IMG/VR virus record: IMGVR_UViG_3300010430_006928
Coordinates: 1 to 32,547 of that record
Direction: 5' to 3' (one strand)
Length of the DNA stretch: 32,547 nt
Origin: a virus
Part shown: positions 1 through 32,547 of the stretch, piece by piece
Layout: every line of letters starts with the position of its first letter
Position numbering within the stretch: position 1 is the stretch's first letter
Translations under genes and position numbers: made by a program
Notes under the pieces: generated by a model
Told to the model about the DNA's origin: nothing
Database searches by the model: none
Seen by the model: the letters and a program-made list of their open reading frames with translations, nothing else

Positions 1-564
1 TCAAAGTAAATTGTTTTTTATAGAATCCAACTCTGCTGCAATTCTAATTAATGCATTTTCGCTTTTATCTTTTGAACTTTCATAATGAGCATATCCCATA
101 CTTGATGCGTATTCTGTTATCATTTCATATCTTTCATCATAATGTTTTTTATTTTCTAGGGTTACTGACTTATATGAAACCTGTGCAATATAATCCTTTT
201 TGTATGTTTCTACTGCTCTTTCTCCTAACATAAAATGTACCATTTGATTAGGTGCTAATACAACATTTTTCATGAAGTCATCTTCCATTGGTTTTGCAAC
301 AAATTTCAACTTTGGTTCAATATTAATTTTCTCTATACGAGCACCACTTTTACCATAATTTTTCACAACCAAGCTGAAAGTATTATCTCTTGGATTTTTA
401 TGCATATATACAAAAATATATGGTCTTGAATCCTCTTCTCTATTCTGTTTCATTTCATCTATAACTTTCCTATTATAGACTACAATAATTAATGTCGCTA
501 TAACATAAACTAAAGTTAATAAGCTCATTATAAATCCTTGGTTTTGATTCAGCCATTCAATCAT
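1..564 (-). CDS. Small membrane-anchored protein of unknown function, second gene of the left-end cassette
   Basis: The protein has 187 residues, with one hydrophobic helix at about residues 11-30 and then a soluble, charged region that should face the cytoplasm. I do not recognise a family. The soluble part (about 50-160) alternates short strands and polar turns, and the C-terminal 25 residues look helical. The ATG start at 564 has a clear AAAGGAGA ribosome binding site. It begins 22 bases after the stop of the DUF4145 gene, so the two probably share one mRNA from the promoter at 1289-1317. Its place beyond the late terminator suggests a gene expressed in the lysogen. A membrane-anchored partner of the DUF4145 protein, or an exclusion protein, is possible but unproven. 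Confidence 0.75.
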   Translation of the reverse strand: MIEWLNQNQGFIMSLLTLVYVIATLIIVVYNRKVIDEMKQNREEDSRPYIFVYMHKNPRDNTFSLVVKNYGKSGARIEKINIEPKLKFVAKPMEDDFMKNVVLAPNQMVHFMLGERAVETYKKDYIAQVSYKSVTLENKKHYDERYEMITEYASSMGYAHYESSKDKSENALIRIAAELDSIKNNLL

Positions 565-585
565 ATTATCTCCTTTAATTTTTTT

Positions 586-1257
586 TTACATTTCATCCAT
601 GTAATGGTTGTAAAGAAGTTCATTCTGAATCCAATGTAATGTCATATCAATAAGAGTCTTTAAGTCGTTAACATCTTTACTTTCCCACTTTCGTGTATAA
701 TGAGAATGATCATTTCCAAGCCAAGCTGCCCGTTTAGCTATGTCCTTTAATCTTTTACTATCAATGCGAGTCTCAATTATATTTCCTAATCTATAATCAC
801 TTTTTATTTCTTCTTCATCTTCAGGGTTAACATACACTAAGAAGTCTTTTATCAAAAATTCAAGCGACTTTCTATATCCCATACCACATATTTGATCTAA
901 ACCATTTATTTCAGCGCTTCGTGCTTGATTGTAAATCTCAATGAACAAACTTGAAATATCTTCAATTCTAGCATCGAACTCAATTGGCTTAATATTATTT
1001 GGTTTTACATAATCAAAATCATATCCACCATTCATAAATTGACCATCACTATGGAAATAGCCAATAAACAATTCCTTACATTCATTATTAGGACACGAAT
1101 ACACTATCCTTAGTAATGAACCTTCATCACCAATAATTTGATGTGCCATATGGTGTTCTGGATTCACTTTACAATTACATATAGGACACTCATCTGGTTC
1201 TTCATGTAAAAAATGAACTGCCTCATCAATATCAAACTGCGAATTAACTAATCTCAT
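586..1257 (-). CDS. DUF4145 domain protein with N-terminal zinc ribbon
   Basis: This protein of 223 residues starts at the ATG at 1257, six bases after AAGGAGG; an in-frame TTG at 1263 abuts the Shine-Dalgarno and is unlikely. Near the N-terminus are a CxxC pair (C24, C27) and a CxxxxC pair (C55, C60), a probable zinc site. The C-terminal half carries the DUF4145-like pattern: a helix around RKSLEFLIKDFL, then LGNDHSHY, and a helix ending in DMTLHWIQNEL. DUF4145 proteins are often found as free-standing genes or fused to nucleases in restriction and other defence loci, but the biochemical role is not settled. It is first in a two-gene unit with its own promoter after the lysis terminator. A role in protecting the lysogen is an inference. 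Confidence 0.75.
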   Translation of the reverse strand: MRLVNSQFDIDEAVHFLHEEPDECPICNCKVNPEHHMAHQIIGDEGSLLRIVYSCPNNECKELFIGYFHSDGQFMNGGYDFDYVKPNNIKPIEFDARIEDISSLFIEIYNQARSAEINGLDQICGMGYRKSLEFLIKDFLVYVNPEDEEEIKSDYRLGNIIETRIDSKRLKDIAKRAAWLGNDHSHYTRKWESKDVNDLKTLIDMTLHWIQNELLYNHYMDEM

Positions 1258-1288
1258 TAACAACCTCCTTATAACATTTCCTATATTT

Positions 1289-1317
1289 AGAATACATCAA
1301 AAATTTTTTTTATCCAA
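1289..1317 (-). promoter_or_regulatory. Sigma-A type promoter for the left-end cassette
   Basis: On the minus strand there is TTGGAT (1317-1312), a 17-base spacer containing an A8-T5 tract, and TATTCT (1294-1289). The transcript would start about 25 bases before the AAGGAGG of the DUF4145 gene. It lies directly downstream of the late-operon terminator, so the cassette can be transcribed independently of lytic genes. Confidence 0.65.
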
Positions 1318-1346
1318 CTAAAAAGATCCACACCAATGGTGTGGAT
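1318..1346 (-). terminator. Rho-independent terminator of the phage late operon
   Basis: A perfect 9-bp stem, ATCCACACC paired with GGTGTGGAT around a three-base loop (1326-1346), is followed on the minus strand by CTTTTTAG. It lies six bases beyond the stop of the holin-like gene and closes the leftward structural and lysis operon. Confidence 0.8.
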
Positions 1347-1351
1347 AAATA

Positions 1352-1675
1352 CTAAACATTAATATGCTCATTTAAAAGATGCTTATTCTTTTCAAAAATC
1401 CAATCAATAAAAGTATAAACATCATCAGGTCCCCAGAGCAACCTTATTATTTTAGGCAAACTAGGATATAGAACTCTATAAACTACACTCATTTTTTCAT
1501 CACCTTTTCCACTGCCCAATACTAGCTCTTCAGCAACTTTTATTAGTTCAAGTGTTAACTTAGCTGCTTCTTTCTTCTTACCTAAGTAATAAAGAATTCC
1601 TATAGCTAAAAAAATCACAACTATAACCACTATTGACCAAGGATCATGCGATAATTCATTCAACATATCATACAT
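1352..1675 (-). CDS. Holin-like membrane protein (LLH-type)
   Basis: The protein has 107 residues, one strongly hydrophobic helix (about 13-31), a basic KKK segment just after it, an amphipathic helix and a C-terminal tail. This matches the layout of LLH-family phage holins, which have one N-terminal membrane helix and a conserved glycine-rich, lysine-rich middle; here GSGKGDEKM is at about 54-62. The role would be to permeabilise or de-energise the inner membrane so the lysin can reach the wall. The gene overlaps the end of the lysin gene by 8 bases and is last in the operon before the terminator. The start is taken at ATG 1675; ATG 1666 is an alternative. Family assignment rests on size, topology and position rather than a diagnostic motif. 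Confidence 0.65.
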   Translation of the reverse strand: MYDMLNELSHDPWSIVVIVVIFLAIGILYYLGKKKEAAKLTLELIKVAEELVLGSGKGDEKMSVVYRVLYPSLPKIIRLLWGPDDVYTFIDWIFEKNKHLLNEHINV

Positions 1676-3227
1676 CCTTTCTTTTTAATCCTATGATAGA
1701 TCCCACTGACCTTTCATATCCACTTGATAGCTCGTTCACAATTTCTTGATTTACAGTCATTTCGGTACTTCCACCACCATCTAAATTAGTAGCATTTTCA
1801 AACTCAATTTCTGTTATTTCTGTAATGAACATTAGGACTTCTTGGGTTTCACTTGCAGTCATTCCTATCGAGTCTCTTCTTCTTCCATCAATAGCTATCA
1901 AACATAAAGTATTATGAGTCATTGAATGAGCTAATAATGATCTAGGATGTCTTTCATCATAATGACTAATACCTGGATCATCTATATCTACATACTTACC
2001 TTCTATGATTAATGGCCATGATGTCCCAATAGCGAAATGAGTGTTATATTGAAGCTTCCAATACTCAGATTTATCTACATCTCTAATCTCAGTAGTGCCA
2101 TCTTTATTTTGGATCCAATTTGCAAACTTCTCATGATTTCCTGTGTAATAATAAAGACCATTAGCTATTAACAAGCCAAGGCCTTCTCGTCCACCACCGA
2201 AGAATTGTCCATTGATAGCTGCAACATATTCATCATCTAACTCAGATAAAACTTCATATTTTCCATATTGACCTAGATTTAAATGAGGTTCGTATTTATC
2301 TAAGTCACCATAGAACACATGAATCTCACTACCATTAAACCAATATGTTTTATACTCAGAATCAGAAGTTTTTAATTCTTCCATGATTCTTACAGATTCT
2401 GGATCCATATTCCCAGTATCATCTAAACCATTTAATCGTTGAAAAGCTTTAAAGCCTGCTCTTGTTTTAGGACCTGGTTTACCATCAAATGGACCACAAT
2501 CGTAACCTAAGTAATATAGAGTTTCTTGGAGCTCTGAAACTGTATACACCTTTGGTTCTTGAGCTTCTACTTGATTTCTTTTTAATACTTCAATAAGTTC
2601 CTCAATATTCATTGGTGTCGATGTTGAAATGATTACATCCTCTACTTGCTCTGGAGCATATACAAGTTTAATAGGATCATTCTGTGTGTACTCAAACACA
2701 TCAGAAACAAAATCATTCCACCCATTTTTTCTATCTAAAATGATATGAGGGCAATACTTTCCTGACCAGTATTGATGTGTAAATAAGACGAATGAATCAT
2801 AAGTCATTTTTAATGCTGCACATAACTTCTTAGCATTTTCTTCAGCTTTTTCAATATTGATATTTTCACAAATCTCAATACCAATTGTTCTATAATTGCC
2901 ATCACCTTTACGATCACCAGCATGATAACCAACTTCATTGAGTGGAATAACTAATGTAATCGAATCGTGATCAACGAATAGATGTGGTGATATATAAAGT
3001 CTATCTGCATTTTCTACATTTTGAAGCCAGTTAGCATGCATCTCATCACCAGCTGATACAGCACTATTTCCTGTATTGTGAATGGTAGCACCAATAGGAT
3101 CAATCATAGGGATCATTGTTCTTACATTTTTTAGTCCTCTAGGATTAACTATTTGTACTTTTATAGGAATCCCATCTGTCGACTTATCCTGGATAATACC
3201 ATCTACTATAGTTAAAGCTTTAATCAT
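1668..3227 (-). CDS. Three-domain endolysin: amidase, peptidoglycan-binding domain and NAGPA-type phosphodiester glycosidase
   Basis: The protein has 519 residues. Residues 40-180 form an Amidase_2 (T7 lysozyme-like) domain: H50 in TIHNT, H151, and C159, with K157 two residues before C159, the same spacing as T7 lysozyme's H122/K128/C130. This fits a zinc N-acetylmuramoyl-L-alanine amidase that cuts the stem peptide from MurNAc. Residues 228-285 resemble PG_binding_1 (LGYDCGPFDGKPGPKT). Residues 300-515 match the NAGPA/phosphodiester glycosidase family, with INGQFF at 339-344 and NLDGGGSTEM at 481-490. The third domain could remove sugar-phosphate decorations such as wall polymers; that target is inferred. 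The start ATG follows GGAGGTGA and overlaps the upstream stop as ATGA. There is no signal peptide, so export would rely on the holin. Confidence 0.88.
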   Translation of the reverse strand: MIKALTIVDGIIQDKSTDGIPIKVQIVNPRGLKNVRTMIPMIDPIGATIHNTGNSAVSAGDEMHANWLQNVENADRLYISPHLFVDHDSITLVIPLNEVGYHAGDRKGDGNYRTIGIEICENINIEKAEENAKKLCAALKMTYDSFVLFTHQYWSGKYCPHIILDRKNGWNDFVSDVFEYTQNDPIKLVYAPEQVEDVIISTSTPMNIEELIEVLKRNQVEAQEPKVYTVSELQETLYYLGYDCGPFDGKPGPKTRAGFKAFQRLNGLDDTGNMDPESVRIMEELKTSDSEYKTYWFNGSEIHVFYGDLDKYEPHLNLGQYGKYEVLSELDDEYVAAINGQFFGGGREGLGLLIANGLYYYTGNHEKFANWIQNKDGTTEIRDVDKSEYWKLQYNTHFAIGTSWPLIIEGKYVDIDDPGISHYDERHPRSLLAHSMTHNTLCLIAIDGRRRDSIGMTASETQEVLMFITEITEIEFENATNLDGGGSTEMTVNQEIVNELSSGYERSVGSIIGLKRKDV

Positions 3228-3544
3228 TTGCTCACCTCCTCAAAAGTTGTTCCTAGGATTCTTTTATCCAATTCATTTAATCTTTTATGAGCTTGCTTAG
3301 TAGATTCTTCTACTCTAACCAATCGCTCATGATCTTCTTTTACATCTTCTTTAATATTAGACATCTCAGTTTCGATTCTCGCTATACCAGTACCAATGCT
3401 CTCTAACTTAACAATAACTGTCGTTAATTGAGAAGCGTCATTCTTGGCATCTGCCTTCTCATTTCTCTTAATATTTGATACACCTTGATAAACACCAAAC
3501 ACTACTGAAACTACTGAAATAACTAACGCGACTTCTATTGTCAT
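3224..3544 (-). CDS. Small membrane-anchored coiled-coil protein of the lysis module
   Basis: The protein has 106 residues from ATG 3544, six bases after AAGGTG; two in-frame GTG codons at 3553 and 3550 lie in the Shine-Dalgarno region. A hydrophobic helix spans about residues 2-20 and is followed by a long heptad-like region (about 30-95) rich in Glu, Lys and Ile/Leu. The layout resembles small phage proteins found beside holins, such as XhlA-like accessory proteins, but with the membrane helix at the N-terminus. It overlaps the lysin start by four bases (ATGA), indicating translational coupling. A role as holin partner or tail/lysis scaffold is inferred from position. Confidence 0.6.
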   Translation of the reverse strand: MTIEVALVISVVSVVFGVYQGVSNIKRNEKADAKNDASQLTTVIVKLESIGTGIARIETEMSNIKEDVKEDHERLVRVEESTKQAHKRLNELDKRILGTTFEEVSK

Positions 3545-3577
3545 GTTCACCACCTTAAATAAAAACAGACTTAATAG

Positions 3578-3715
3578 TTATACTATTAAATCTGCTCTAC
3601 CTTCACTTATCAAATGCGCATCAATATCAGCTTTAAGATCTATTCTTCGACCGATTACATAAGAATAACCATATCTCCCTGATATAATAAAATCTCCATA
3701 TAATTTTCCCCACAT
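3578..3715 (-). CDS. Short XkdX/CD1375-like phage protein
   Basis: The protein has 45 residues, starting MWGKLYGDFIISGR and ending SEGRADLIV. A strong GGAGGTGG site precedes the ATG, which overlaps the stop of the upstream gene in a TAATG junction, so translation is well supported. Proteins of about 45 residues with this layout (a short hydrophobic start, an I/V-x-x-G turn, and a helix ending near the C-terminus) are commonly encoded right after tail-fibre genes in Bacillota phages. Their function is unknown. I judge the resemblance by pattern only. Confidence 0.65.
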   Translation of the reverse strand: MWGKLYGDFIISGRYGYSYVIGRRIDLKADIDAHLISEGRADLIV

Positions 3716-4020
3716 TATAATCCACCTCCAATTTGAAGTCCAACATCTGCAATCATAGCTTTTAGCATTTCATTTTCTTCTTTTACTTCTTTATTGATTA
3801 CCTGCTGATCAGTTAATGTGTACTCATACCACATTTCCTTAGTTTGTGGATTCACATATAATACATGATTATACTTTGATTTTTCATGCGGTACTTGTGG
3901 TACTTGATCCACTTCAATAGCTCGTTCCTTGTCAATCGTTTTTAGTAAGTGTGGTTTGTAGTGTATACCACTAACCTTTTGCTTATTACCCTCTTTTGAT
4001 TTTACAAATAATATGACCAT
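3715..4020 (-). CDS. Small tail-fibre-associated protein, unknown function
   Basis: The protein has 101 residues from ATG 4020, which has AAAGGAGGA at good spacing. An upstream in-frame ATG at 4071 lies inside the preceding gene and lacks a ribosome binding site. The N-terminal part is basic and predicted mostly strand. A middle segment (about 52-70) contains LYVNPQTKEMWYEY, and the last 30 residues form a charged helix ending in a glycine cluster (GGGL). This order, a fibre gene followed by a roughly 100-residue protein with a C-terminal helix, is like XkdW-type genes of defective Bacillus phages. No enzymatic motif is seen. Confidence 0.6.
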   Translation of the reverse strand: MVILFVKSKEGNKQKVSGIHYKPHLLKTIDKERAIEVDQVPQVPHEKSKYNHVLYVNPQTKEMWYEYTLTDQQVINKEVKEENEMLKAMIADVGLQIGGGL

Positions 4021-4021
4021 T

Positions 4022-5917
4022 CTATAGTCCTCCTTTAACGGTTGTTGATGTAATTTGGTAAACGTCCCCATTTCCCGGATTATCCTCTCGCGTGTTTAAA
4101 ATCTTACCGAACCTTAACTCGAAAAACTCGTAATAACCATCAGGGACAAATACTGCTTTGCATATATTTATCATATCGAATACATAAAGTGGTCTTTTTA
4201 TTTCCCAGCCATTATCATAAAGACCGCAACATCTCATGTATAACTTGTCGTTGATAGAATCGTAGTCCAGCCTATGTTGACTTCTGTAATCGATAGGGAA
4301 ATTATATGATGAACTTGACTCAGCTTGTAAAACTCCGTCTGTTATCCTAACATTAGTTACTCTGTTATTTCTATCGTAAGATAGAGAATCATCGTCAAAC
4401 CATAGTGATTTAATATAAGTTTCGTCCATCTTAAAAGCAACCGTGGCAAAATTATAATTAGATGTGCTTACATTTAGCGTTCTAATAAGAATCGCATTGC
4501 CTTGTAAGTCAAATTCATACAGCCTCATAGTGTTAACATCAAAAGCATTTATCTTATTGTACTTAGGATTATAAACTGGTCGGTAATAAGTTGCTCCACT
4601 ATATATAGTTGTTAAATTAGTTATATTAATTAAAGCAAAACTTTTTGTATTACTTAGAAAAATTACTCCATCGATTATTTCTATATGTTCATACGTTCCT
4701 GTTGTATGAAGCCCATAACTGTCCGCTGGTACTACATCAAGTCCTGTATCACCATCAATTCTATGAATAGTATTACCACTATTTTCCCAAGCAAATACGT
4801 CACCTGTAACTGGGTCATAAGTACACGCTAATACATCAGAACCAATGTCGATTGCCCACACTTCTTGTAGATTTGAATCAAGTTTTTTTACCCATCCATT
4901 ACTATCACCTAAATAAAAGTTGCCTTGATTGTCCATGTCAAATCTTTGAACATTTTTACCTGTTATAGATAATAATTTTTCATAACTGTTGCCCATTAAA
5001 CTTACAGCTACTATGTCACCATCTTTTGCCCCTCCAGCTTTAGGGGCTAAGTAAAAAGCCACATCATCTTCAATAACATCATAAAACATGGTTTCTGCAA
5101 GCAACTCAGTAACTTCATCACCATTTGGTAATTTTAACGGCTTTGATGCAGCACCATTTTTTACAACGTTTATAGCACCACCTGTGATATCAGTAATTAT
5201 TTTAACAGTATGCTTCTTCTGAGTTGATGCAGTAGTGATTGTTAAGGTTTGATTTGATACCTCTGGTGTTATAGGATCTAAACCTAACTTTGTATCTATC
5301 ACGTCCTGTGACAAAATACTCAAATTATCAGTATTAATCTCAACTTTGTTGTTTATTTCACTAATAACATCTACATCTGGTGGCGAAATACCTTGCTTAA
5401 TATTAGATAAACCACATACTAAGGCATTGGTTCGTTCATCTAATACAACACCAGTATTTAATACAACTACATTACTTGGTACCTCTATTTGTGCCAATGA
5501 AATTTGCCAAATATCATCATTTCTAATCAAACTTGGTGCAACTGGTTCTGATGCTGGAATACCTCTAACGGCTTTAATTACAAAAGCTCTTATATCTTCT
5601 GTTAAGTTCAACTCAATAACCACTCGATCAATTCTTTTATGTGTTGGATCAGCAGCATCATGTTCTACTTCTTCAGGCACAGTTACTTGATAATCACGCC
5701 CCTTGATAAAACCTACACCAACAGCTACTTGAGTTTTCATTGTGTCGGTAATGATACTCACTTGGTTTTGAGTTGTTAACTCACCACCCCCTTCAATAGC
5801 AATACCATCACTTACAAACCTTGACCATCTACTAGCATATTCGTCTGAAGAATATTCACGATCATATAAACCCGTAACTTCATCAAACTTAGCTTCAAAA
5901 TATCCTCCAATGATCAT
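4022..5917 (-). CDS. Large baseplate or tail-fibre protein with a probable C-terminal beta-propeller
   Basis: The protein has 631 residues. The N-terminal 180 (MIIGGYFEAKFD..., a GRDYQV segment, and IDRVVIELN) resemble baseplate-attachment parts of siphovirus fibre proteins. Residues 185-215 could be a short coiled coil. From about 315 to 600 there are repeated four-strand-like units with phrases such as GNFYLGDSNGWVKKLD, DPVTGDVFAWENS and DSINDKLYMRCCG, typical in style of NHL/PQQ-type propeller blades. That part is a good candidate for binding a receptor on the host surface. The start follows AAGGAGGTGA and overlaps the upstream stop (TAATG). The propeller assignment is inferred from the repeating pattern, not from a signature. 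Confidence 0.7.
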   Translation of the reverse strand: MIIGGYFEAKFDEVTGLYDREYSSDEYASRWSRFVSDGIAIEGGGELTTQNQVSIITDTMKTQVAVGVGFIKGRDYQVTVPEEVEHDAADPTHKRIDRVVIELNLTEDIRAFVIKAVRGIPASEPVAPSLIRNDDIWQISLAQIEVPSNVVVLNTGVVLDERTNALVCGLSNIKQGISPPDVDVISEINNKVEINTDNLSILSQDVIDTKLGLDPITPEVSNQTLTITTASTQKKHTVKIITDITGGAINVVKNGAASKPLKLPNGDEVTELLAETMFYDVIEDDVAFYLAPKAGGAKDGDIVAVSLMGNSYEKLLSITGKNVQRFDMDNQGNFYLGDSNGWVKKLDSNLQEVWAIDIGSDVLACTYDPVTGDVFAWENSGNTIHRIDGDTGLDVVPADSYGLHTTGTYEHIEIIDGVIFLSNTKSFALINITNLTTIYSGATYYRPVYNPKYNKINAFDVNTMRLYEFDLQGNAILIRTLNVSTSNYNFATVAFKMDETYIKSLWFDDDSLSYDRNNRVTNVRITDGVLQAESSSSYNFPIDYRSQHRLDYDSINDKLYMRCCGLYDNGWEIKRPLYVFDMINICKAVFVPDGYYEFFELRFGKILNTREDNPGNGDVYQITSTTVKGGL

Positions 5918-6981
5918 TACTTCACCTCCTTCTTCAACTTGCCTTTAAGAACATCTTTAAGTGTCGGAATATTGTTACCAAACACTACTTCTACTCTTAA
6001 CTTCTTTGCTTCATAAATTTCTCTTATTTCTGTTATTCTTGTATCTAGTCTAATCGACCACTTTTTATTTGTTACAGTTACTAAATCACCTAAATTAAAA
6101 TCTCTCTCATATACAAATGGTTGTCTATTAAGAATCTCAGTTTCAAAAGTGAATATCTCAGGATATTGAGCCAACTCGGTTTCACCTTCAGAAATCAAGC
6201 TATCAGTCGACGATCTACTTTCAACAATCAATTCTTTACGATTGATGCCTGAATAATCACCCACTGTTACTAGTTCTCTATCAACTCCTTCACCTTGACC
6301 ATAAACATATGCAAAGTTCTTTTCTTCTACATCGCTTTGATAAAGTAATTGCTTTGAGATGTTATCATAATCAGTTGAAAATATTACTGGTTTCTCTTGT
6401 CCTGCTCTATGATCCTCGCCAATCATCACATCAACATCTAATTTATTGGTAACTCTATTTATGACTATTGAGATTCCCATTTCATGTTGCTTTCTTATTT
6501 GTGACACATACTCCGATAAGAACTCGCCTCGAGCATTATACTCAGAAACAGCACCTCTATTACAATCTTCTATTAAGTTGAAAAAATCCAGCTTCCTTTT
6601 AGGATCAACTGGATCAACAATGCAATTATTAATGTAATGCTTAATCGAAGTTTCAACTGATGCTATTATAGAATCATATGCTGATGGTGCAACAGGGATT
6701 ATCACTCTTGATGAGAAAAGAAAATCTAAGGAAAATCCTGAGATAATTATTTCTTCAGTATTTTCTGCAGATCTTTCAACAACTTTGATGATGCCACATT
6801 TAGTTAAATTCTTACCAATACTTATTATATTATTCTTGATAAGATGATGAACATCTTTCTTATTTTCATTGATGTGAAGTTCAAACATACTATGAGTGTA
6901 ATAATTTCTTTCAAATACCAAACTTTCATAATCATCTATCTCAGTTAAAAAATTGATATTTAAATCAAATACTCTAATCAA
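5917..6981 (-). CDS. Tail hub protein, ReqiPepy6 Gp37-like
   Basis: The protein has 354 residues and starts at TTG 6981 after GGGGGTG. It reads as a Siphovirus Gp37-like tail protein: an N-terminal strand-rich part (IRVFDLNINFLTEIDDYESL), a middle segment with YNARGEFLSEYVSQIRKQH, and a C-terminal hub-like domain containing FNLGDLVTVTNKKW and RITEIREIY. Proteins of this family sit at the tail tip between the distal tail protein and the fibres and form the channel through which DNA and the tape measure leave. It lies between the distal tail gene and the fibre gene, the usual place. I see no peptidase motif, so cell-wall cleavage by this protein is not supported. Confidence 0.8.
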   Translation of the reverse strand: MIRVFDLNINFLTEIDDYESLVFERNYYTHSMFELHINENKKDVHHLIKNNIISIGKNLTKCGIIKVVERSAENTEEIIISGFSLDFLFSSRVIIPVAPSAYDSIIASVETSIKHYINNCIVDPVDPKRKLDFFNLIEDCNRGAVSEYNARGEFLSEYVSQIRKQHEMGISIVINRVTNKLDVDVMIGEDHRAGQEKPVIFSTDYDNISKQLLYQSDVEEKNFAYVYGQGEGVDRELVTVGDYSGINRKELIVESRSSTDSLISEGETELAQYPEIFTFETEILNRQPFVYERDFNLGDLVTVTNKKWSIRLDTRITEIREIYEAKKLRVEVVFGNNIPTLKDVLKGKLKKEVK

Positions 6982-6983
6982 AA

Positions 6984-7829
6984 CTACACCCCCACATATC
7001 TATTTGTATAAGTCAGTGAAACTTCTGCACTCTCGGAACCACTATCAGCATCATAGGTTATAATGTTTTCTCCAGGATTCAGATAAAATAACTCACTATC
7101 TAAATCAATAAAACCAAATGCATTTTCACCATTGATCATTACAGATTTGTTTCCTTTTTCAGTTCTTATCTCCAACACTTCCCCAACATACAATTCTTTT
7201 TCTACCTTAATGAACTTATTAGTAGTCAAATTTTTTACTACAGGATTTAATGCAGGCCCATTGAACTTAATGACTATTGGTACTTCAACATGACCTTTTA
7301 CATTAATCTTGATTGTCTTATTTAAAATCACACTAAATGTAATGTTGGGTGAGAATATCAAAGGAAACCTAAAAGTCGGTTTGGACACTGCTAACTTTTC
7401 ACCACTTGGTTCATCATCTAGCCAAAACGGATTAGAGCACTCAATGCTAAATTTAGCTTCTTGATATCCAATCATGTCACCTTCTGGAAAATCAACTTCA
7501 CCATCGAGTACACCTTTAATTCTTTTCTTACCACCAGGATACTCATACAAAATGTCTAATGTATACTTAGGATTTAGAGTTTTACACACTTCTTCTTTCA
7601 ATACATATAATGAAGGAAAATCACTTTCTAAAATGGCAAATTTAATATCCAAATCTCTGTCATCAAATGTTGTATTGATATGAGTACTGCCATCCTGATT
7701 GGGAGCTTTTACTGTTTCCTTAGACGATTTTGGAACACCAGTACCTTCTAATTGTTGAAGAACATAAGGATTACTTTTAGAGATCTTTATACTCGATCCA
7801 TTTTCACTTTTTATAGTTAATGTCCGCAT
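6984..7829 (-). CDS. Distal tail protein (Dit-like)
   Basis: The protein has 281 residues with an ATG preceded by GGGGG. The N-terminal 130 residues show the siphovirus tail component (Dit/SipA) pattern: a strand-rich start, TTFDDRDLDIKFAI, a helix with YVLKEEVCKTLNPKY, and a strand ending in FSIECSNPFWLDDE. The remaining half is strand-rich and includes GENAFGFIDLDSELFYLNPGENI, shaped like the galectin-like second domain of Dit proteins. It forms the ring that links the tail tube to the baseplate. It follows the tape measure gene directly, as in most Gram-positive siphophages. Confidence 0.85.
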   Translation of the reverse strand: MRTLTIKSENGSSIKISKSNPYVLQQLEGTGVPKSSKETVKAPNQDGSTHINTTFDDRDLDIKFAILESDFPSLYVLKEEVCKTLNPKYTLDILYEYPGGKKRIKGVLDGEVDFPEGDMIGYQEAKFSIECSNPFWLDDEPSGEKLAVSKPTFRFPLIFSPNITFSVILNKTIKINVKGHVEVPIVIKFNGPALNPVVKNLTTNKFIKVEKELYVGEVLEIRTEKGNKSVMINGENAFGFIDLDSELFYLNPGENIITYDADSGSESAEVSLTYTNRYVGV

Positions 7830-7838
7830 CCTAACCCC

Positions 7839-9782
7839 CTATGCAAATTCCCTAGCTAACTTCCTAGAAGCTTTCTTAGTCTCTTTACCTACTTCACTTG
7901 GTGATAGATGTTTAGGACTATATACATTTACAGTCTGATACACATCACCTTTTGAGTTTTCATCACCACTTAATTTCGTTTGTTTTAGTGGCTTAACCTT
8001 AGCACCTTCAGGTAAAAATATTTCTTCTAAACCTTTTTCACCAACAATTACTCTACCAGACTTTAAAATGTCTCCACCCTGTTCTAACATTGGTATAGTA
8101 TTAATACTAAAACTATTTCCTCCTACACCAGGTACCCAATCTGGAATCTTGATACCATTAACACCTTCAATGAATGAATTAATACCAGAAATAATCCAGT
8201 TGATTCCACCTTTAATATTCTCTACAAGTCCATTCCATATACCAGATACAACTTCAGCAATCTTACTAAACAAAGCTTCGAACGGTGCTATAAAAGCCTC
8301 AACTGCTATAATAATCGCATCTAATATACTTCCAAATGCATCTTTAATCCCTTGCCAAGCACCATCCCAATCACCTCTTATCAGTGCTAGTACAGCTTTG
8401 ATGATACTTGAAATAACATTCATAACATTTTGAATGATACCTTTCATACTTTCAAACGCTTTCATAACATATGGCAGAACGTGTTCGGCGAACTCCATGA
8501 ACAGCGCTATTAGAAATGGTAATACATTCTCAATAATAACCTGTATCAGTTCAATGAATGGTGGCAATACCGTTTCAATCAGCACATTAAACAACTCGAT
8601 GATAATCGGCATAACATTCTCTATAATCTCACTAAACAACTCAATCAATGGAGGCATAATTATATCTATTATTGTTTTAAAAGCCCCAATTAACGGTGGT
8701 AGTACTTTCTGTATAAGTGTAATGAACAACTCAATGAATGGTGGTAAAATTGTTTTAATTAATATATTCAAAATATCAAGAAAGGGTGGTAGCAGTGTAT
8801 TTATAATCATATTGAATATCTCTATAAAAACTGGTAACACTCCTTCTATCAATGAGCTAATAACAGAAACTAGCAAAGGAATAATATTACTTCCTAATTC
8901 CGAAAAAAGAGCTATTAATGGTGGCAAAACACCTTCTAATATACTCTTAAATATAGGTATCACAGATTCCACTGATGCGCCTAATAACTTAAACACATCA
9001 CCAAATATACCTTGAACCAATGGCATATTACTCTGAACAAACACCAAAAAATCTTGAAGCATTGGCATTAATGTACTCATAAATCCAATGGCCAATCCTT
9101 TGACAGTTCTTTTAAGTTGATCCATTGTATCAGCAAACTTTACACCAGCATCGATTGCATCATCACCAATTACCATACCCATTTCATTCGCTTGTTCTTT
9201 CATTGCATCGATACTATCTGCACCAGCATTCAACAGTGGTGTTAACTCTAAAGCACTCTTACCTAATAAGTCATTGGCAATAGCAGCTCTTTCTGATTCA
9301 TCAGATACACCTTGTAATGATTTCACTGTTAACTCAAAAATTTCTTCTTGACTCTTTCCAGCTAAATCATCCATTGTGAGACCTAATCTCTTAAATGCAT
9401 CTGCACCTGCACCAGAACCACTTTTCAATTCATCAAATGAGTTATTTAACTTGACCATTCCTGATTTCATTCCATCTATGGAAGCACCATTTTGTGATAA
9501 AATAAAATCCCACTCTTGAAAGCCTTTTCTAGTCATCCCTAATTTTTGACTCATCTTATCAATATGATCAGTAGTCTCAGCAAACTTTTCGCCAGCTTTA
9601 AGCATTGCACCACCAACTGCAACAGCACCTACGGTTATACCTGCAGTCCATTTAGCAGCTGTCTTAATGCCTTTGCCTAATGAAGCAGCAATATTCTTTG
9701 CTTTTCCATCAGTTTTATCAAGTGATTCATTTGCTTTATCTGACTCAACAAATATTGATCCAAAAAGCTCAAATATTTTCAT
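7839..9782 (-). CDS. Tail tape measure protein
   Basis: The protein has 647 residues and starts at an ATG behind GGAGGTGA. The first 60 residues are a charged helix followed by an Ala/Gly-rich hydrophobic stretch. Residues 60-235 resemble the TP901-type tape measure core (KMSQKLGMTRKGFQEWDFIL). Residues 286-440 consist of exact 15-residue repeats that begin LPP or MPP. The last 180 residues include an amphipathic region (DWDGAWQGIKDAFGSI) and the phrase ILKSGRVIVGEKGLEEIFLP, a common C-terminal tape-measure motif. It sets tail length and is ejected with the DNA. At 647 residues it is shorter than many siphovirus tape measures, predicting a comparatively short tail. Confidence 0.93.
   Translation of the reverse strand: MKIFELFGSIFVESDKANESLDKTDGKAKNIAASLGKGIKTAAKWTAGITVGAVAVGGAMLKAGEKFAETTDHIDKMSQKLGMTRKGFQEWDFILSQNGASIDGMKSGMVKLNNSFDELKSGSGAGADAFKRLGLTMDDLAGKSQEEIFELTVKSLQGVSDESERAAIANDLLGKSALELTPLLNAGADSIDAMKEQANEMGMVIGDDAIDAGVKFADTMDQLKRTVKGLAIGFMSTLMPMLQDFLVFVQSNMPLVQGIFGDVFKLLGASVESVIPIFKSILEGVLPPLIALFSELGSNIIPLLVSVISSLIEGVLPVFIEIFNMIINTLLPPFLDILNILIKTILPPFIELFITLIQKVLPPLIGAFKTIIDIIMPPLIELFSEIIENVMPIIIELFNVLIETVLPPFIELIQVIIENVLPFLIALFMEFAEHVLPYVMKAFESMKGIIQNVMNVISSIIKAVLALIRGDWDGAWQGIKDAFGSILDAIIIAVEAFIAPFEALFSKIAEVVSGIWNGLVENIKGGINWIISGINSFIEGVNGIKIPDWVPGVGGNSFSINTIPMLEQGGDILKSGRVIVGEKGLEEIFLPEGAKVKPLKQTKLSGDENSKGDVYQTVNVYSPKHLSPSEVGKETKKASRKLAREFA
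8463..8927. repeat. Tandem 45-bp coding repeats in the tape measure gene
   Basis: They encode a 15-residue unit of the form LPPFIELFxxLIxxV. Unit starts fall at residues 286, 301, 316, 331, 346, 361, 376, 391, 406, 421 and 436 with no slip. The DNA copies are diverged, so this is an old protein repeat rather than a recent duplication. Each unit is one turn-capped hydrophobic helix. Confidence 0.85.
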
Positions 9783-27946: not shown

Positions 27947-29035
27947 ATGAACAATTCAAATCCAAATGAACGTCTCAAAAGAGACTGGTCTCAAAACATA
28001 TTTTACTTTTTCGTAAGTATTTCAATAATAGTAATCATCTCCCCATTTTTACTTAAATTCAGGATTTTCCAAAATGTAGGTGATTTTTTATTATGGGGCT
28101 TAGGAGAGTATAAAAAAGAGTACATAAACTTAATCGGTGGCATGATTGGAGCCGGTTTAGCTGTAAGTAGTGCAGTATTAATTCAACGCCGATCAAACCT
28201 TCAAAAGGAAAATGAAGAAGAACAACTTAAGAGAAATGAAATCATTAGAAAAAGCAAGCAAGTAAAACGCTATTTGGAACGTAATATTATAGCTATATGG
28301 AACATTTGGTTATGGAATACATTTGATATGAGTCACCATTTTAGAGATAGAAAAGAGTTTCCATATGAACCATACTCAATCTCTATTCATAAGATGTTAG
28401 ATACATTCATTGAAATCGAGCAGTACTTAGACGAAAGTACAATTGACTTCTTTTATGATATCTATTTCTTCTCAGATAAAATTCATAGTTACGTAAATAC
28501 ATATAACAGTATTAAGAATGAAACTGTTCACCATCACACTCAAAATGCAAGCTTTGGAAATGTAAGCATCAATGCTGAATTTAGAAAAACACCTTCCTCT
28601 TATAATATGATAAGAACTTTAGAGTTACTATTGGAAAGAAAAGCAGGGATTTTATTTAATCTTTCTGATTTGAATTTCAAAACTGCAAGAGAAGGAGAAA
28701 GAAGCATCCATCAAAAGAAATACTCTTTCTATGATCAAAAAGAAGAGTTAGCTCGAACTTTATATTTTGAAGAAAAAAAGTATATTGAAGATGGAATATA
28801 TATTGATCTTAGCAAGGAAAAGGCTACAATAGACGAATGGATGAACACAGAAAATAGAGAGTTAATTCCGAATGAACACAGAACCAAAATTATTGATTTG
28901 TGTGCAGCAAAGCTCGAGTTCGAAAACATTCATTCTGAGTATGAAGATCAAAAGAAATTTTACTTTGAGAACATGGACACCCCCCAATATAGCACAAAAA
29001 TACTTGCACTATTTGATACTCTCACTAATATTTAA
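27947..29035 (+). CDS. Two-helix membrane protein of unknown function in the lysogeny arm
   Basis: The protein has 362 residues. Membrane helices lie at about 17-38 (FYFFVSISIIVIISPFLL) and 60-80 (LIGGMIGAGLAVSSAVLI). A charged coiled coil follows (about 82-105), then about 250 residues of soluble, mostly helical region with no recognised catalytic motif. The positive charge distribution suggests that both ends are cytoplasmic. AAGGAAAATCAT lies before the ATG. It sits between the antirepressor gene and integrase, a common place for genes expressed in the lysogen, including abortive-infection and exclusion genes. I do not recognise a family. Confidence 0.8.
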   Translation: MNNSNPNERLKRDWSQNIFYFFVSISIIVIISPFLLKFRIFQNVGDFLLWGLGEYKKEYINLIGGMIGAGLAVSSAVLIQRRSNLQKENEEEQLKRNEIIRKSKQVKRYLERNIIAIWNIWLWNTFDMSHHFRDRKEFPYEPYSISIHKMLDTFIEIEQYLDESTIDFFYDIYFFSDKIHSYVNTYNSIKNETVHHHTQNASFGNVSINAEFRKTPSSYNMIRTLELLLERKAGILFNLSDLNFKTAREGERSIHQKKYSFYDQKEELARTLYFEEKKYIEDGIYIDLSKEKATIDEWMNTENRELIPNEHRTKIIDLCAAKLEFENIHSEYEDQKKFYFENMDTPQYSTKILALFDTLTNI

Positions 29036-29191: not shown

Positions 29192-30223
29192 ATGAAAAAT
29201 CCAAACGGATATGGTAGTGTTCTTAAACTGTCTGGTAAAAGGCGGAAACCTTTTGCTGTAAGGATAACTGTAGGATGGAATGACCAAGGTAAGCAAAAAT
29301 ATAAGTACATCGGATATTACGAGACTCGATCATCTGCAATGATTGCTTTAGCAGACTATCATCAAAATCCTTATGATCTTGATGCTGGCAAAATAACATT
29401 CGAAGAAGTTTTTAAGAAATGGTCGGATGAGAAATATCCTAATTACTCTAAATCTAACATTATTGCCTATAACTCATCTTATAAGGCATGTTCGCCTTTA
29501 TACGAACTCAGATTCGTTGATATCAAAAAATCTCATCTTCAGAACGTAATTGATACGTGCGGTAAAAATTACCCAATGCTTCGAAAGATAAAAGTTTTAT
29601 TCAACCAGTTATACAGATATGCTTTAGAAAACGACTTAGTAACAAAGGACTACTCAGAATTTGTTGAAATAAGTCATCATAAGAAAGAAGACAATGAAAG
29701 GGATCCTTTCTCTAGCAAGGAGATTTCTACTCTCTGGGACAATGTTGATAGAAATGAATATAACTCAATTATTCTAATGCTCATTTACAGTGGTGTAAGG
29801 ATTTCTGAACTTCTCAATTTAAAAAAGGAAAATGTACATCTTGATGAAAAGTACTTTGATGTTGTCAGTGCTAAAACTAAGGCAGGTATAAGAAAAGTTC
29901 CAATATCAGATAAAACAATACAGTACTTTTCTCACTGGATGAGCAAAAGCTCTACTGAGTATCTTTTAGTTACACCAGATGGCGATGCTTTTACTTATAG
30001 AAATTATTATGATTCCTACTGGAAACCACTAATAACAGAGATGAACATGAAACACACTCCACATGATACTAGGCATACAACTGTATCATTACTAGTTGCA
30101 GCACATATTAATCAGACAATAATAAAGAGAATTGTTGGTCATGCTGGTGCAATGTCTCTTACAGAAAGAGTATACACGCATTTTGAGATTCAACAACTGA
30201 TTGATGCAATAAATAAAATCTAA
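29192..30223 (+). CDS. int: Site-specific tyrosine integrase
   Basis: The protein has 343 residues. An N-terminal basic arm-binding domain (1-60) is followed by a SAM-like core-binding domain (68-160) and a catalytic domain (170-343) with R203 (SGVRISELL), K228/K230 (TKAGIR), H291 and R294 (HDTRH), H317 (GHAGA) and the nucleophile Y328 (RVYTHF). All active-site residues are present, so it should be functional. It inserts and, with an excisionase, releases the prophage. It is preceded by AAAGGATGTGA and ends 11 bases before a terminator. The arm domain fits phage-type integrases of 340-390 residues. Confidence 0.95.
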   Translation: MKNPNGYGSVLKLSGKRRKPFAVRITVGWNDQGKQKYKYIGYYETRSSAMIALADYHQNPYDLDAGKITFEEVFKKWSDEKYPNYSKSNIIAYNSSYKACSPLYELRFVDIKKSHLQNVIDTCGKNYPMLRKIKVLFNQLYRYALENDLVTKDYSEFVEISHHKKEDNERDPFSSKEISTLWDNVDRNEYNSIILMLIYSGVRISELLNLKKENVHLDEKYFDVVSAKTKAGIRKVPISDKTIQYFSHWMSKSSTEYLLVTPDGDAFTYRNYYDSYWKPLITEMNMKHTPHDTRHTTVSLLVAAHINQTIIKRIVGHAGAMSLTERVYTHFEIQQLIDAINKI

Positions 30224-30233
30224 GTATGTAGCA

Positions 30234-30261
30234 AAAAGAATCCTTATCAAAGGATTCTTTT
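30234..30261. terminator. Bidirectional terminator between integrase and the S8 peptidase gene
   Basis: A perfect 12-bp stem AAAAGAATCCTT and AAGGATTCTTTT has loop ATCA. It gives a T-run on both strands and so serves the convergent genes. The right prophage end may lie in or near it. Confidence 0.88.
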
Positions 30262-30264
30262 CAA

Positions 30265-32547
30265 CTAATTATTTACTATTACTTCGTTGTAAGCTCTTAC
30301 TTGTGCAGCTTCTAGTTTATTATACTGTTCAAGAGTTAGTTGATTTATATCTTCTTCACACTTTAAGTATTCAATAGTAGCAATTACAGTATACTCAATA
30401 TTATCTACATCTGAATCGAATCTATCCATAGCATGAATTCTAATATGAGGATTCATAAGAGTTTTATACATAAAATTCTTCTGTCTCGTAATAACAGTAT
30501 CCCATTTGAAATTACCTTTTCTTTCATACTCCGGTTTATACTTATTGCTCCAATCACTAAATGTAGCAGGAGTGCTTGAGGCTACATAGCCCTCTTCAAT
30601 CAATGCTTCATAGAGTTCAGCATCCTCTATGATGTTGACCGCTTTTTGCTTTTTTTTGTTACCTAAATCCTTTGTTAAGTTGAACACATTTTGATTCTTA
30701 ATAAATGTATCTTCAATTGCTGTCTTAGTATAATCTTCAGTATTTAATGGATTTACATCCGAAGTTTGAGCAATTGTATATTTTATCTTAACTTTACCAT
30801 TAAAATCAAGATCTCTAATAACAGGCAAAGGAATCACAGCATATTTTTTAGGTTGAATCACCCCTCTATATATCACTTTCACTTCATTATATTTAGAGGT
30901 TAATATCTCATCTACATCTAAATGTGAATATCCAAAACCGTGAAGTTTATCAGTAGTATTGTCTGGATGAAATGCCGTATGTATCAAGAAATTTTTCGCC
31001 AATAAAGGTGTAGCCGATTCCATTCTTCCAACTATTTCAGCAGCCCTTGCAGCAATCAGCGGAGAAGCAAAACTTGTTCCCATTGTAAGAGACATCTTAG
31101 TGTGATCTGGTGTAAATACATGAAACGGATAATCATCACACCCACCAAAACCTAAAACATCTGGCTTAACCTTCGACCCCTCTCTTCCATCTCCTACAGA
31201 GCTATAATACGCTCTTTGAAGATTCAGTTTTTCATCATATGAGTACGCACCAACAGCTAAATTGTTTACACTATCTGAGGGAGCTTGAATTCTCGCCAAA
31301 TCTCCTGGTAAATCTCCATCGTTACCTACAGCTGTAACAAACAATTTTGAATGTATTCTTGACAATCTATCAATTGAATATGTAAATCTAGATATGTAAT
31401 CGTCATCAATAGCACCATATGGTCCTATCGACAAATTATAGACATGAGTATCTAAATCATTTGGTACGATGTCCTCAATTATATCAATTACTTCATACAA
31501 ATTTCTATCATTCGCATCAGATAATGGCAGTACCCTATAACTTTTTACATTTACTGTTGGAGACTTTAACTCCCCATTTGTAATATACTCTGATAAATCA
31601 CCATAAACTGCTGCACTCACTACACCATTTCCATGACTATAATAATGATCATGTTTTTCAGTACCTATTGGATTATACTCTTCTACATAATTACTAAAAA
31701 GCGGATGAGCTCCATTAACACCACCATCAAATATACCTAAATTGATTTTAGACTTTATCATTGGCACTTCAACAATCGATTGCATTCCTAAATCACGAAC
31801 CGGCATTTTAGGAAGATCACATAATCTAAGTTCATTAATTGTTCTAATTGGATTAAACTTAATAACTTTCTCTAATTGCGGTTTTGTAATTCTTACACTA
31901 GCAAACGTTATTCCATCATCATATAATCTGATATCAACAGTATCTTCTTTCGATTCTGAACCAATCATCTCTTTGAACTTCTCAATAACTGTTGAGTTGG
32001 ATTTTGAAAATGGATGAAGTACAAACTCTACTCGACCCTCTTCCCAATCTTCAGGGAACTTACTAAGAAGTGATTCATGATTATCAAAATATATTGAATC
32101 TATATTTCTTAACTCGTCCTTTTCACCTTCGTTAAATCCCGAGTCTTTCAAAAGATTCGACTTGAATCTTATTAAATCAGACTTATTTATTTTGATAAAA
32201 ACCTCGTTACTAGTTTTAAGTGTTGGCTTTCCTCTCACGATAGCCTTTTGACTCCACTTCTTAGTACCTAACTCTTTAGCTCTTACACGAGATATGACTT
32301 TTTTTGGATGATATGACTTTGCAGAACAATTAATATCCAACCTCATCTTTAGGACAAAATCATCCAGTATCATCTCTTGTGAATATAGATCTACCTCTTC
32401 TATAACTGTTGTAATATTTTCAGCAAGTTTATATCTTGCTTCATCATAAGTCTGTCTCTTATCTCTACCAGGTGGTGTAGGCTTTTTCTTAAATGGTTCT
32501 ATGTACTCTTCTCCGTTAATTAAAATTGGTCTTCTCTTATCATTCAT
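30265..32547 (-). CDS. Subtilisin-like S8 serine peptidase with large N-terminal domain
   Basis: The protein has 760 residues, intact; its ATG ends at the last base of the window, so its promoter and upstream partner are not visible. Residues 1-265 form an N-terminal region with no signal peptide. The peptidase domain has D274 (IFDGGVNG), H305 (SHGNGVVSAAVYG), the oxyanion N409 (TAVGNDGD) and S492 (MGTSFASP), a complete S8 catalytic set. The last 200 residues are strand-rich and charged. Cytoplasmic S8 peptidases of this shape occur beside an AAA-type ATPase gene in presumed defence loci; I recall this pattern but cannot see the neighbour. It converges on the integrase and is probably host flanking DNA. 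Confidence 0.88.
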   Translation of the reverse strand: MNDKRRPILINGEEYIEPFKKKPTPPGRDKRQTYDEARYKLAENITTVIEEVDLYSQEMILDDFVLKMRLDINCSAKSYHPKKVISRVRAKELGTKKWSQKAIVRGKPTLKTSNEVFIKINKSDLIRFKSNLLKDSGFNEGEKDELRNIDSIYFDNHESLLSKFPEDWEEGRVEFVLHPFSKSNSTVIEKFKEMIGSESKEDTVDIRLYDDGITFASVRITKPQLEKVIKFNPIRTINELRLCDLPKMPVRDLGMQSIVEVPMIKSKINLGIFDGGVNGAHPLFSNYVEEYNPIGTEKHDHYYSHGNGVVSAAVYGDLSEYITNGELKSPTVNVKSYRVLPLSDANDRNLYEVIDIIEDIVPNDLDTHVYNLSIGPYGAIDDDYISRFTYSIDRLSRIHSKLFVTAVGNDGDLPGDLARIQAPSDSVNNLAVGAYSYDEKLNLQRAYYSSVGDGREGSKVKPDVLGFGGCDDYPFHVFTPDHTKMSLTMGTSFASPLIAARAAEIVGRMESATPLLAKNFLIHTAFHPDNTTDKLHGFGYSHLDVDEILTSKYNEVKVIYRGVIQPKKYAVIPLPVIRDLDFNGKVKIKYTIAQTSDVNPLNTEDYTKTAIEDTFIKNQNVFNLTKDLGNKKKQKAVNIIEDAELYEALIEEGYVASSTPATFSDWSNKYKPEYERKGNFKWDTVITRQKNFMYKTLMNPHIRIHAMDRFDSDVDNIEYTVIATIEYLKCEEDINQLTLEQYNKLEAAQVRAYNEVIVNN

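Follow-up and report, generated by a model that had tools for sequence, protein, structure and literature searches.

The IMG/VR virus record IMGVR_UViG_3300010430_006928, which in its whole length of 32,547 nucleotides is the window analyzed here, represents a temperate phage and carries, behind the terminator of its late operon, a two-gene unit encoding a zinc-ribbon protein related to DUF4145 and a one-helix membrane protein. This unit may well be a prophage-borne cargo cassette, a candidate for superinfection defence of the abortive-infection or exclusion type, directed against competing phages. The assignment to defence is more secure than a joint action of the two proteins, whose cooperation is weakly supported.

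Gene layout and the terminator of the late operon

Base 1 of the record is a stop codon and base 32547 a start codon, showing that the record was cut exactly at gene boundaries at both ends; owing to this trimming, the sequence to the left of base 1 is unreadable. The late genes, the lysis genes and the two-gene cassette are located on the minus strand, and a repressor, an ImmA-like peptidase and an integrase are encoded on the plus strand in the right part. The tyrosine integrase (29192..30223, plus strand) lies at the end of the prophage opposite the cassette. A 362-aa protein with N-terminal hydrophobic stretches, for which no family match was obtained in Pfam, PADLOC or NCBIfam, is encoded between the ImmA-like and integrase genes (27947-29035, plus strand). 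The endolysin (1668..3227, minus strand) consists of amidase_2, peptidoglycan-binding and NAGPA-like domains; a NAGPA (phosphodiester glycosidase) domain at the C-terminus of an endolysin, preceded by the other two domains, is unusual. The final gene of the late operon and lysis module encodes a one-helix protein of 107 aa (1352..1675, minus strand) that belongs to PHROG 15303 and displays weak holin similarity; no relatives of this lysis-end gene were found.

The two-gene unit that the preliminary description had placed after the late operon was confirmed. It comprises the gene for a DUF4145-like protein of 223 aa (586..1257, minus strand) and that for a membrane protein of 187 aa (1..564, minus strand), which are co-directional, 21 bp apart and each equipped with a good ribosome-binding site, AAGGAGG for the former and AAAGGAG for the latter. 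The start of the DUF4145-like gene was corrected to the ATG at 1257, replacing the TTG at 1263 of the listed open reading frame. The intrinsic terminator claimed to close the late/lysis operon (1326..1346, minus strand) was likewise borne out and is located directly behind the 107-aa gene. Its stem (1346-1326) contains 9 pairs and is followed by the tail CTTTTTAGTT, which is T-rich to ~1317. The folding energy is -13.3 kcal/mol (z -2.9 relative to dinucleotide-shuffled sequences), and this is the sole terminator-like site within positions 1-4000.

The promoter proposed between the terminator and the cassette (1289..1317, minus strand) failed as evidence. Its hexamers, TTGGAT-17-TATTCT, are present at this position, but with 7 of 12 consensus matches this putative weak promoter is indistinguishable from chance. 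It was not among the 10 sites found in a consensus promoter scan, in which shuffled sequences gave a mean of 21 sites. Moreover, a matrix score as good as that of the putative promoter was reached by 22% of 95-nt tiles taken at random from its strand and by 40% of shuffles, so that the promoter has no evidential value. Of the features expected of a prophage moron, the terminator before the cassette is thus present, while the promoter lies within chance; the place of a terminator following the cassette falls beyond the end of the record. The earlier reading of the unit as cargo behind a late terminator keeps its anatomy and is further consistent with the lone, counter-oriented copies of the DUF4145-like gene in other phages (see below), but can no longer draw on the promoter. 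Closely spaced behind the terminator, the two genes could be expressed without the late operon, and we propose that both proteins would be made in the lysogen.

The DUF4145-like protein and its relatives

On the basis of its structural model, the DUF4145-like protein can confidently be described as a zinc ribbon followed by a HEPN fold. The zinc ribbon named in the preliminary description stands, as its four cysteines (C24, C27, C55, C60) are invariant across 51 relatives. The DUF4145 label holds for the family more than for the protein itself, which remains below the threshold of Pfam DUF4145 (PF13643; 16.6 bits, E 0.0085; curated cut-off 23.1 bits), yet 39 of the 51 relatives match this domain at E<=0.01 (best 4.7e-6). 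The profile of PHROG 1305, a family labelled 'DNA binding protein', is matched with an E value of 1.1e-38 (residues 23-212 on 16-205 of 226). PADLOC contains no model for either this protein or the membrane protein. An AlphaFold2 model computed with the 51 relatives (pLDDT 92.5) displays a beta-rich zinc ribbon and then helices from 96 to 222, the helical domain proper spanning residues ~96-222. In comparisons with VIA-align, HEPN domains (2q00, 3o10, 2hsb, 4nqf, 1o3u, 1wol and others) took most of ranks 1-16 at Z scores of 10.8-7.5, bearing in mind that Z scores of 8-13 are not decisive alone for helical bundles. Foldseek alone gave weak results (E 0.25 or more), and the HEPN fold was assigned because the VIA-align matches agree with the published link between DUF4145 and HEPN (PMC3710099). 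No known fold besides HEPN was recognized in the model; the zinc-ribbon half gave middling matches, which we leave uninterpreted.

DUF4145 belongs to the HEPN superfamily and occurs in operons with R-M and McrBC, and the published HEPN motif is Rx4-6H (PMC3710099). The window protein resembles the HEPN/DUF4145 proteins described there in its helical fold, its conserved His, its zinc-ribbon architecture and the links of its family to R-M operons and dsDNA viruses. Unlike in these proteins, the position of the canonical HEPN arginine (181) is occupied by Gly in 51 of 51 aligned relatives, His186 of the RNase motif being kept. The resulting motif GND..HY (181-187; GNDxxHY) contains the invariant residues N182, D183 and H186 and the nearly invariant Y187, and the equally invariant R129, E133 and K137 are found on another helix. 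The DUF4145-like protein is HEPN by fold, without the HEPN catalytic motif, and since the arginine is replaced throughout, an ordinary HEPN RNase is unsupported and RNase action doubtful. A HEPN-fold protein within a two-gene unit is also reminiscent of HEPN-MNT toxin-antitoxin systems; however, the partner in the window is a membrane protein, not a nucleotidyltransferase, and the HEPN arginine is absent. Upon infection, this presumably soluble zinc ribbon/HEPN protein may sense or bind phage nucleic acid or protein, with the polar set of R129/E133/K137 and N182/D183/H186/Y187 replacing the usual HEPN arginine.

As no close relatives of either cassette protein were detected by single-sequence searches of virus contigs, alignments were used as queries. 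In this analysis, the PHROG 1305-type family gave more than 150 matches in virus contigs and more than 260 in genomes. Conservation as host housekeeping genes outside prophages, which the preliminary description had regarded as an argument against cargo, was not seen in Clostridia: the family is found patchily across many phyla and in only 4 of 391 Clostridia genomes, which argues that it is not housekeeping there. In virus loci, the DUF4145-like gene stands alone, oriented against the genes on either side, in 32 of 76 cases, whereas genes of similar size in these loci do so at a rate of 7.2% (p 3e-17). The corresponding figures for cellular loci are 4 of 73 and 10.9%, and all of these counts are based on simple ORF-based gene calls. 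Such lone counter-oriented copies are carried by the named phages SM1, phiJH1301-1, Javan197, phiRS7, phiHugo and AC844P2. This lone reverse orientation in phages is as expected of autonomous, independently transcribed lysogenic cargo.

In cells, the gene is associated with type I R-M operons, either within them or next to them (L139, L013), and the family is also present on plasmids. Neighbours within 1.5 kb of the DUF4145-like gene match 229 PADLOC families compared to 31 for genes at distances above 5 kb, a comparison that counts families rather than genes and is only indicative. Among the phages of PHROG 1305, Streptococcus phage SM1 (gp14) and Aeribacillus phage AP45 (gp32) show near full-length homology to the window protein, with 45% identity to that of AP45, and the gene in this family is again often a lone, reverse-oriented one. 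In these phages, the gene belongs to the early/lysogeny region or precedes the terminase, whereas that of the window lies behind the lysis module and is coupled to a membrane protein gene. Phage SM1 (L003, 5764-8762) encodes two DUF4145-like proteins with a zinc ribbon, gp14 and gp7 (gp7 being recognized by its sequence motifs), as well as gp11, which resembles a protein of a bacterial genome (L203) matching a TIR effector model; all three genes are counter-oriented to the early operon and form a cluster of lysogenic cargo.

The annotation of PHROG 1305 as a DNA binding protein would also suit a phage regulator or lysogeny-maintenance factor, or a counter-defence protein directed against R-M or BREX of the host. 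In line with such a role, the gene is found near antirepressors and repressors in Streptococcus phages and others, and in three virus contigs (L025, L047, L061) it lies among the tail genes and is probably expressed late. We nevertheless consider this role of the DUF4145-like protein decidedly unlikely, as no DNA-binding domain besides the zinc ribbon is predicted in the model, the family is present in cellular R-M operons and on plasmids, where a lysogeny role would be senseless, and a role in defence has been established experimentally for BxaP, which contains a DUF4145 domain (PMC10799925).

The membrane protein and its relatives in defence loci

That the second gene encodes a one-helix membrane protein proved correct: there is a single N-terminal helix, followed by positive residues. 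According to the positive-inside rule, positive residues mark the cytoplasmic side, and the remainder of the protein with its beta-sandwich domain is probably cytoplasmic. The structural model is modest (pLDDT 69), shows a beta-sandwich and a C-terminal helix with generic matches to Ig-like and pilin domains (E at least 0.002), and was taken for its general shape only. The protein matches PHROG 9607 with an E value of 7.4e-21 (residues 17-178 on 12-172 of 179) and shares with proteins of this type one N-terminal helix, a beta-sandwich with the pattern RPY(I/V)xVY...KNxGK...APxQ and a C-terminal helix. Unlike the window protein, those proteins are not as a rule paired with DUF4145, and their BREX- and IetAS-linked copies come from whole-genome assemblies, not from virus records.

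No match in phages or plasmids was obtained with the membrane protein of the window as query, its BREX homologue gave one distant phage match and no plasmid match, and a two-row alignment of the membrane protein gave no match in virus contigs. The family is rare: 9 of 391 Clostridia genomes contain it, as do 6 of 398 in the class to which the Sporosarcina locus belongs. The nearest relative, with 47% identity across the full length, is encoded in a type 3 BREX operon, where it occupies the gap from PglXI to BrxHII; this operon is complete from BrxF to BrxA, with all components confirmed by PADLOC and gaps of ~10-21 bp. Of the other relatives, one is found immediately upstream of IetA-IetS (1.5e-40 and 3.7e-61) in a bacterial genome, one precedes the methylase and endonuclease genes of a type II system, and one is near a match to a TIR-like effector. 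In two genomes of the same class as the Sporosarcina locus (L203 and L204, ~5900-8030), a PHROG 9607 membrane protein is encoded close to a TIR-like effector match beside rnc-smc genes, an arrangement that resembles a small mobile defence insert.

The position between PglXI and BrxHII is also that of BxaP, a DUF4145 protein of type 3 BREX, which alone provides 1000-fold, Abi-like protection against T4 and which occurs with type 3 BREX or, in virus genomes, with type I R-M (PMC10799925). The cassette resembles BxaP in its DUF4145-like domain and in that the homologue of its membrane protein fills the slot of BxaP. By its domain description, however, BxaP is set apart as a protein with an N-terminal DUF4145 domain and a C-terminal HEAT-like region, whereas the window protein has a zinc ribbon and a terminal HEPN domain that extends to residue 222 of 223, and no second C-terminal domain. 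Among the 24 type 3 BREX loci found with both PglXI and BrxHII, the gap between these genes was empty in 14, contained core BREX genes in 2 and other sequence in 8. In Bacillota (L193:3075-15278, L248-L287), the contents were Mrr, AAA_13, AAA_15, DUF5343, an SMC-like protein and the PHROG 9607 membrane protein, and the gap in type 3 BREX of this phylum is a variable accessory-defence slot. Apart from L193, neither cassette family was present in the 40 BREX loci checked. Slot-sharing with BxaP as a specific link is weakened by the 8 of 24 loci that hold other non-core sequence there; since the slot is a general accessory one, co-occupancy is weak evidence of a specific link, and the shared position is suggestive as a connection of the membrane protein to BxaP.

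Prophage boundary and the relation of the two genes

A second candidate defence gene, either cargo or host flank, is found past the integrase and encodes an IetS-like S8 protease (30265..32547, minus strand). The protease matches the IetS models of the IetAS system (PADLOC IetS 1.1e-49) and PHROG 3964 (1e-115), stays below the NCBIfam cut-off and has distant relatives only (best 34%); the position of its would-be ATPase (IetA) partner falls outside the record. Related proteases occur in the Paenibacillus phages Dash, Callan and Yyerffej; that of Dash is encoded behind the lysis genes, next to an ATPase-like gene. In relatives of the window integrase (L221/L223), the integrase gene is followed by lysis genes, and the attP appears from this comparison to lie directly downstream of the integrase, before the lysis genes, so that the S8 protease may be host DNA.

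If the prophage ended at the terminator, the cassette would likewise consist of host genes flanking attR, perhaps as part of a host defence island together with the IetS-like protease. The trimming of the record at gene ends, the apparent attP position in the related phages and the membrane-protein homologue beside IetAS in a bacterial genome are compatible with this arrangement. We regard it as unlikely, however, as positions 1-1800 and 30000-30700 have no direct repeat above 11 bp in common; an 11-mer at 1385/30254 is of chance-expected length and lies within a gene, the PHROG match of which extends past it. The lack of an att-size repeat joining the left end to the integrase end favours an att site beyond base 1, with the cassette inside the prophage. 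Moreover, both proteins match phage families (PHROG 1305 1e-38, PHROG 9607 7e-21), the pair occurs within prophages in three other records (L031, L043, L053), and the Paenibacillus phages carry such S8 proteases behind their lysis genes. No tRNA was found at the record ends, base composition did not separate the cassette from the prophage, and the two closest virus contigs (L010, L011) terminate within the endolysin, before the cassette region. Overall, we consider it likely that the cassette lies inside the prophage.

That the two genes belong to one system, as the preliminary description assumed, was not supported. In a whole-record search covering 50 records, two of which had not been found via DUF4145, the membrane family was detected in 3 of the 48 DUF4145 virus records (L031, L043, L053), on the same strand and within ~1.1 kb. 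The spacing there is loose, ~0.3-0.8 kb, with the genes in either order and at most one gene between them. A six-frame search of the flanks of 80 virus and 80 genome DUF4145 loci gave one weak addition among the viruses (L069, E 0.03) and none in the genomes, and no DUF4145 gene was present near the independently found membrane-protein loci that were checked. With recurrence in only 3 of ~80 other DUF4145 virus loci, the cassette families are recurrent neighbours, not an obligate pair, and a shared lysogeny-module or cargo hotspot could be the source of this neighbourhood.

It is possible, though somewhat doubtful, that the unit consists of two independent cargo genes that share a cargo zone at the prophage end, each maybe serving defence or fitness, and that they do not form a single system. 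Most phage DUF4145 genes have no membrane partner, the checked loci of the membrane family outside those prophages lack a nearby DUF4145 gene, and gene order and spacing vary among the four prophages holding both. On the other hand, only 21 bp separate the two genes of the window, each of which has its own ribosome-binding site, and in all three other co-occurrences the genes share a strand and have at most one gene between them, despite the rarity of both families (4 of 391 and 9 of 391 genomes).

A two-component phage-borne system, made up of the zinc-ribbon HEPN-fold protein and a membrane-anchored Ig-like protein, is a tentative and rather doubtful reading. It would include both that GNDxxHY together with R/E/K is a re-invented active or binding site replacing the HEPN arginine, and that the membrane protein is a module also recruited as an accessory by type 3 BREX, IetAS and R-M. 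The second protein would serve as a one-helix membrane anchor presenting its Ig-like beta-sandwich to the cytoplasm, and in the weakest step of the proposed mechanism the HEPN-fold protein would act with or on this partner, thereby stopping the cell or the phage. Taken together, the earlier proposal of a candidate defence or exclusion system gains support from the context of the two families (relatives in type 3 BREX, IetAS and type II R-M loci; BxaP, PMC10799925), but not as a joint system.

If defence cargo is the correct interpretation, PHROG 1305, a large and mostly unannotated phage family, would be tied to anti-phage defence, and the PHROG 9607 membrane family would be an accessory that recurs in BREX, IetAS and R-M loci and is missing from the defence library used. 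The DUF4145-like protein would moreover make a HEPN variant that lacks the catalytic arginine accessible to testing.
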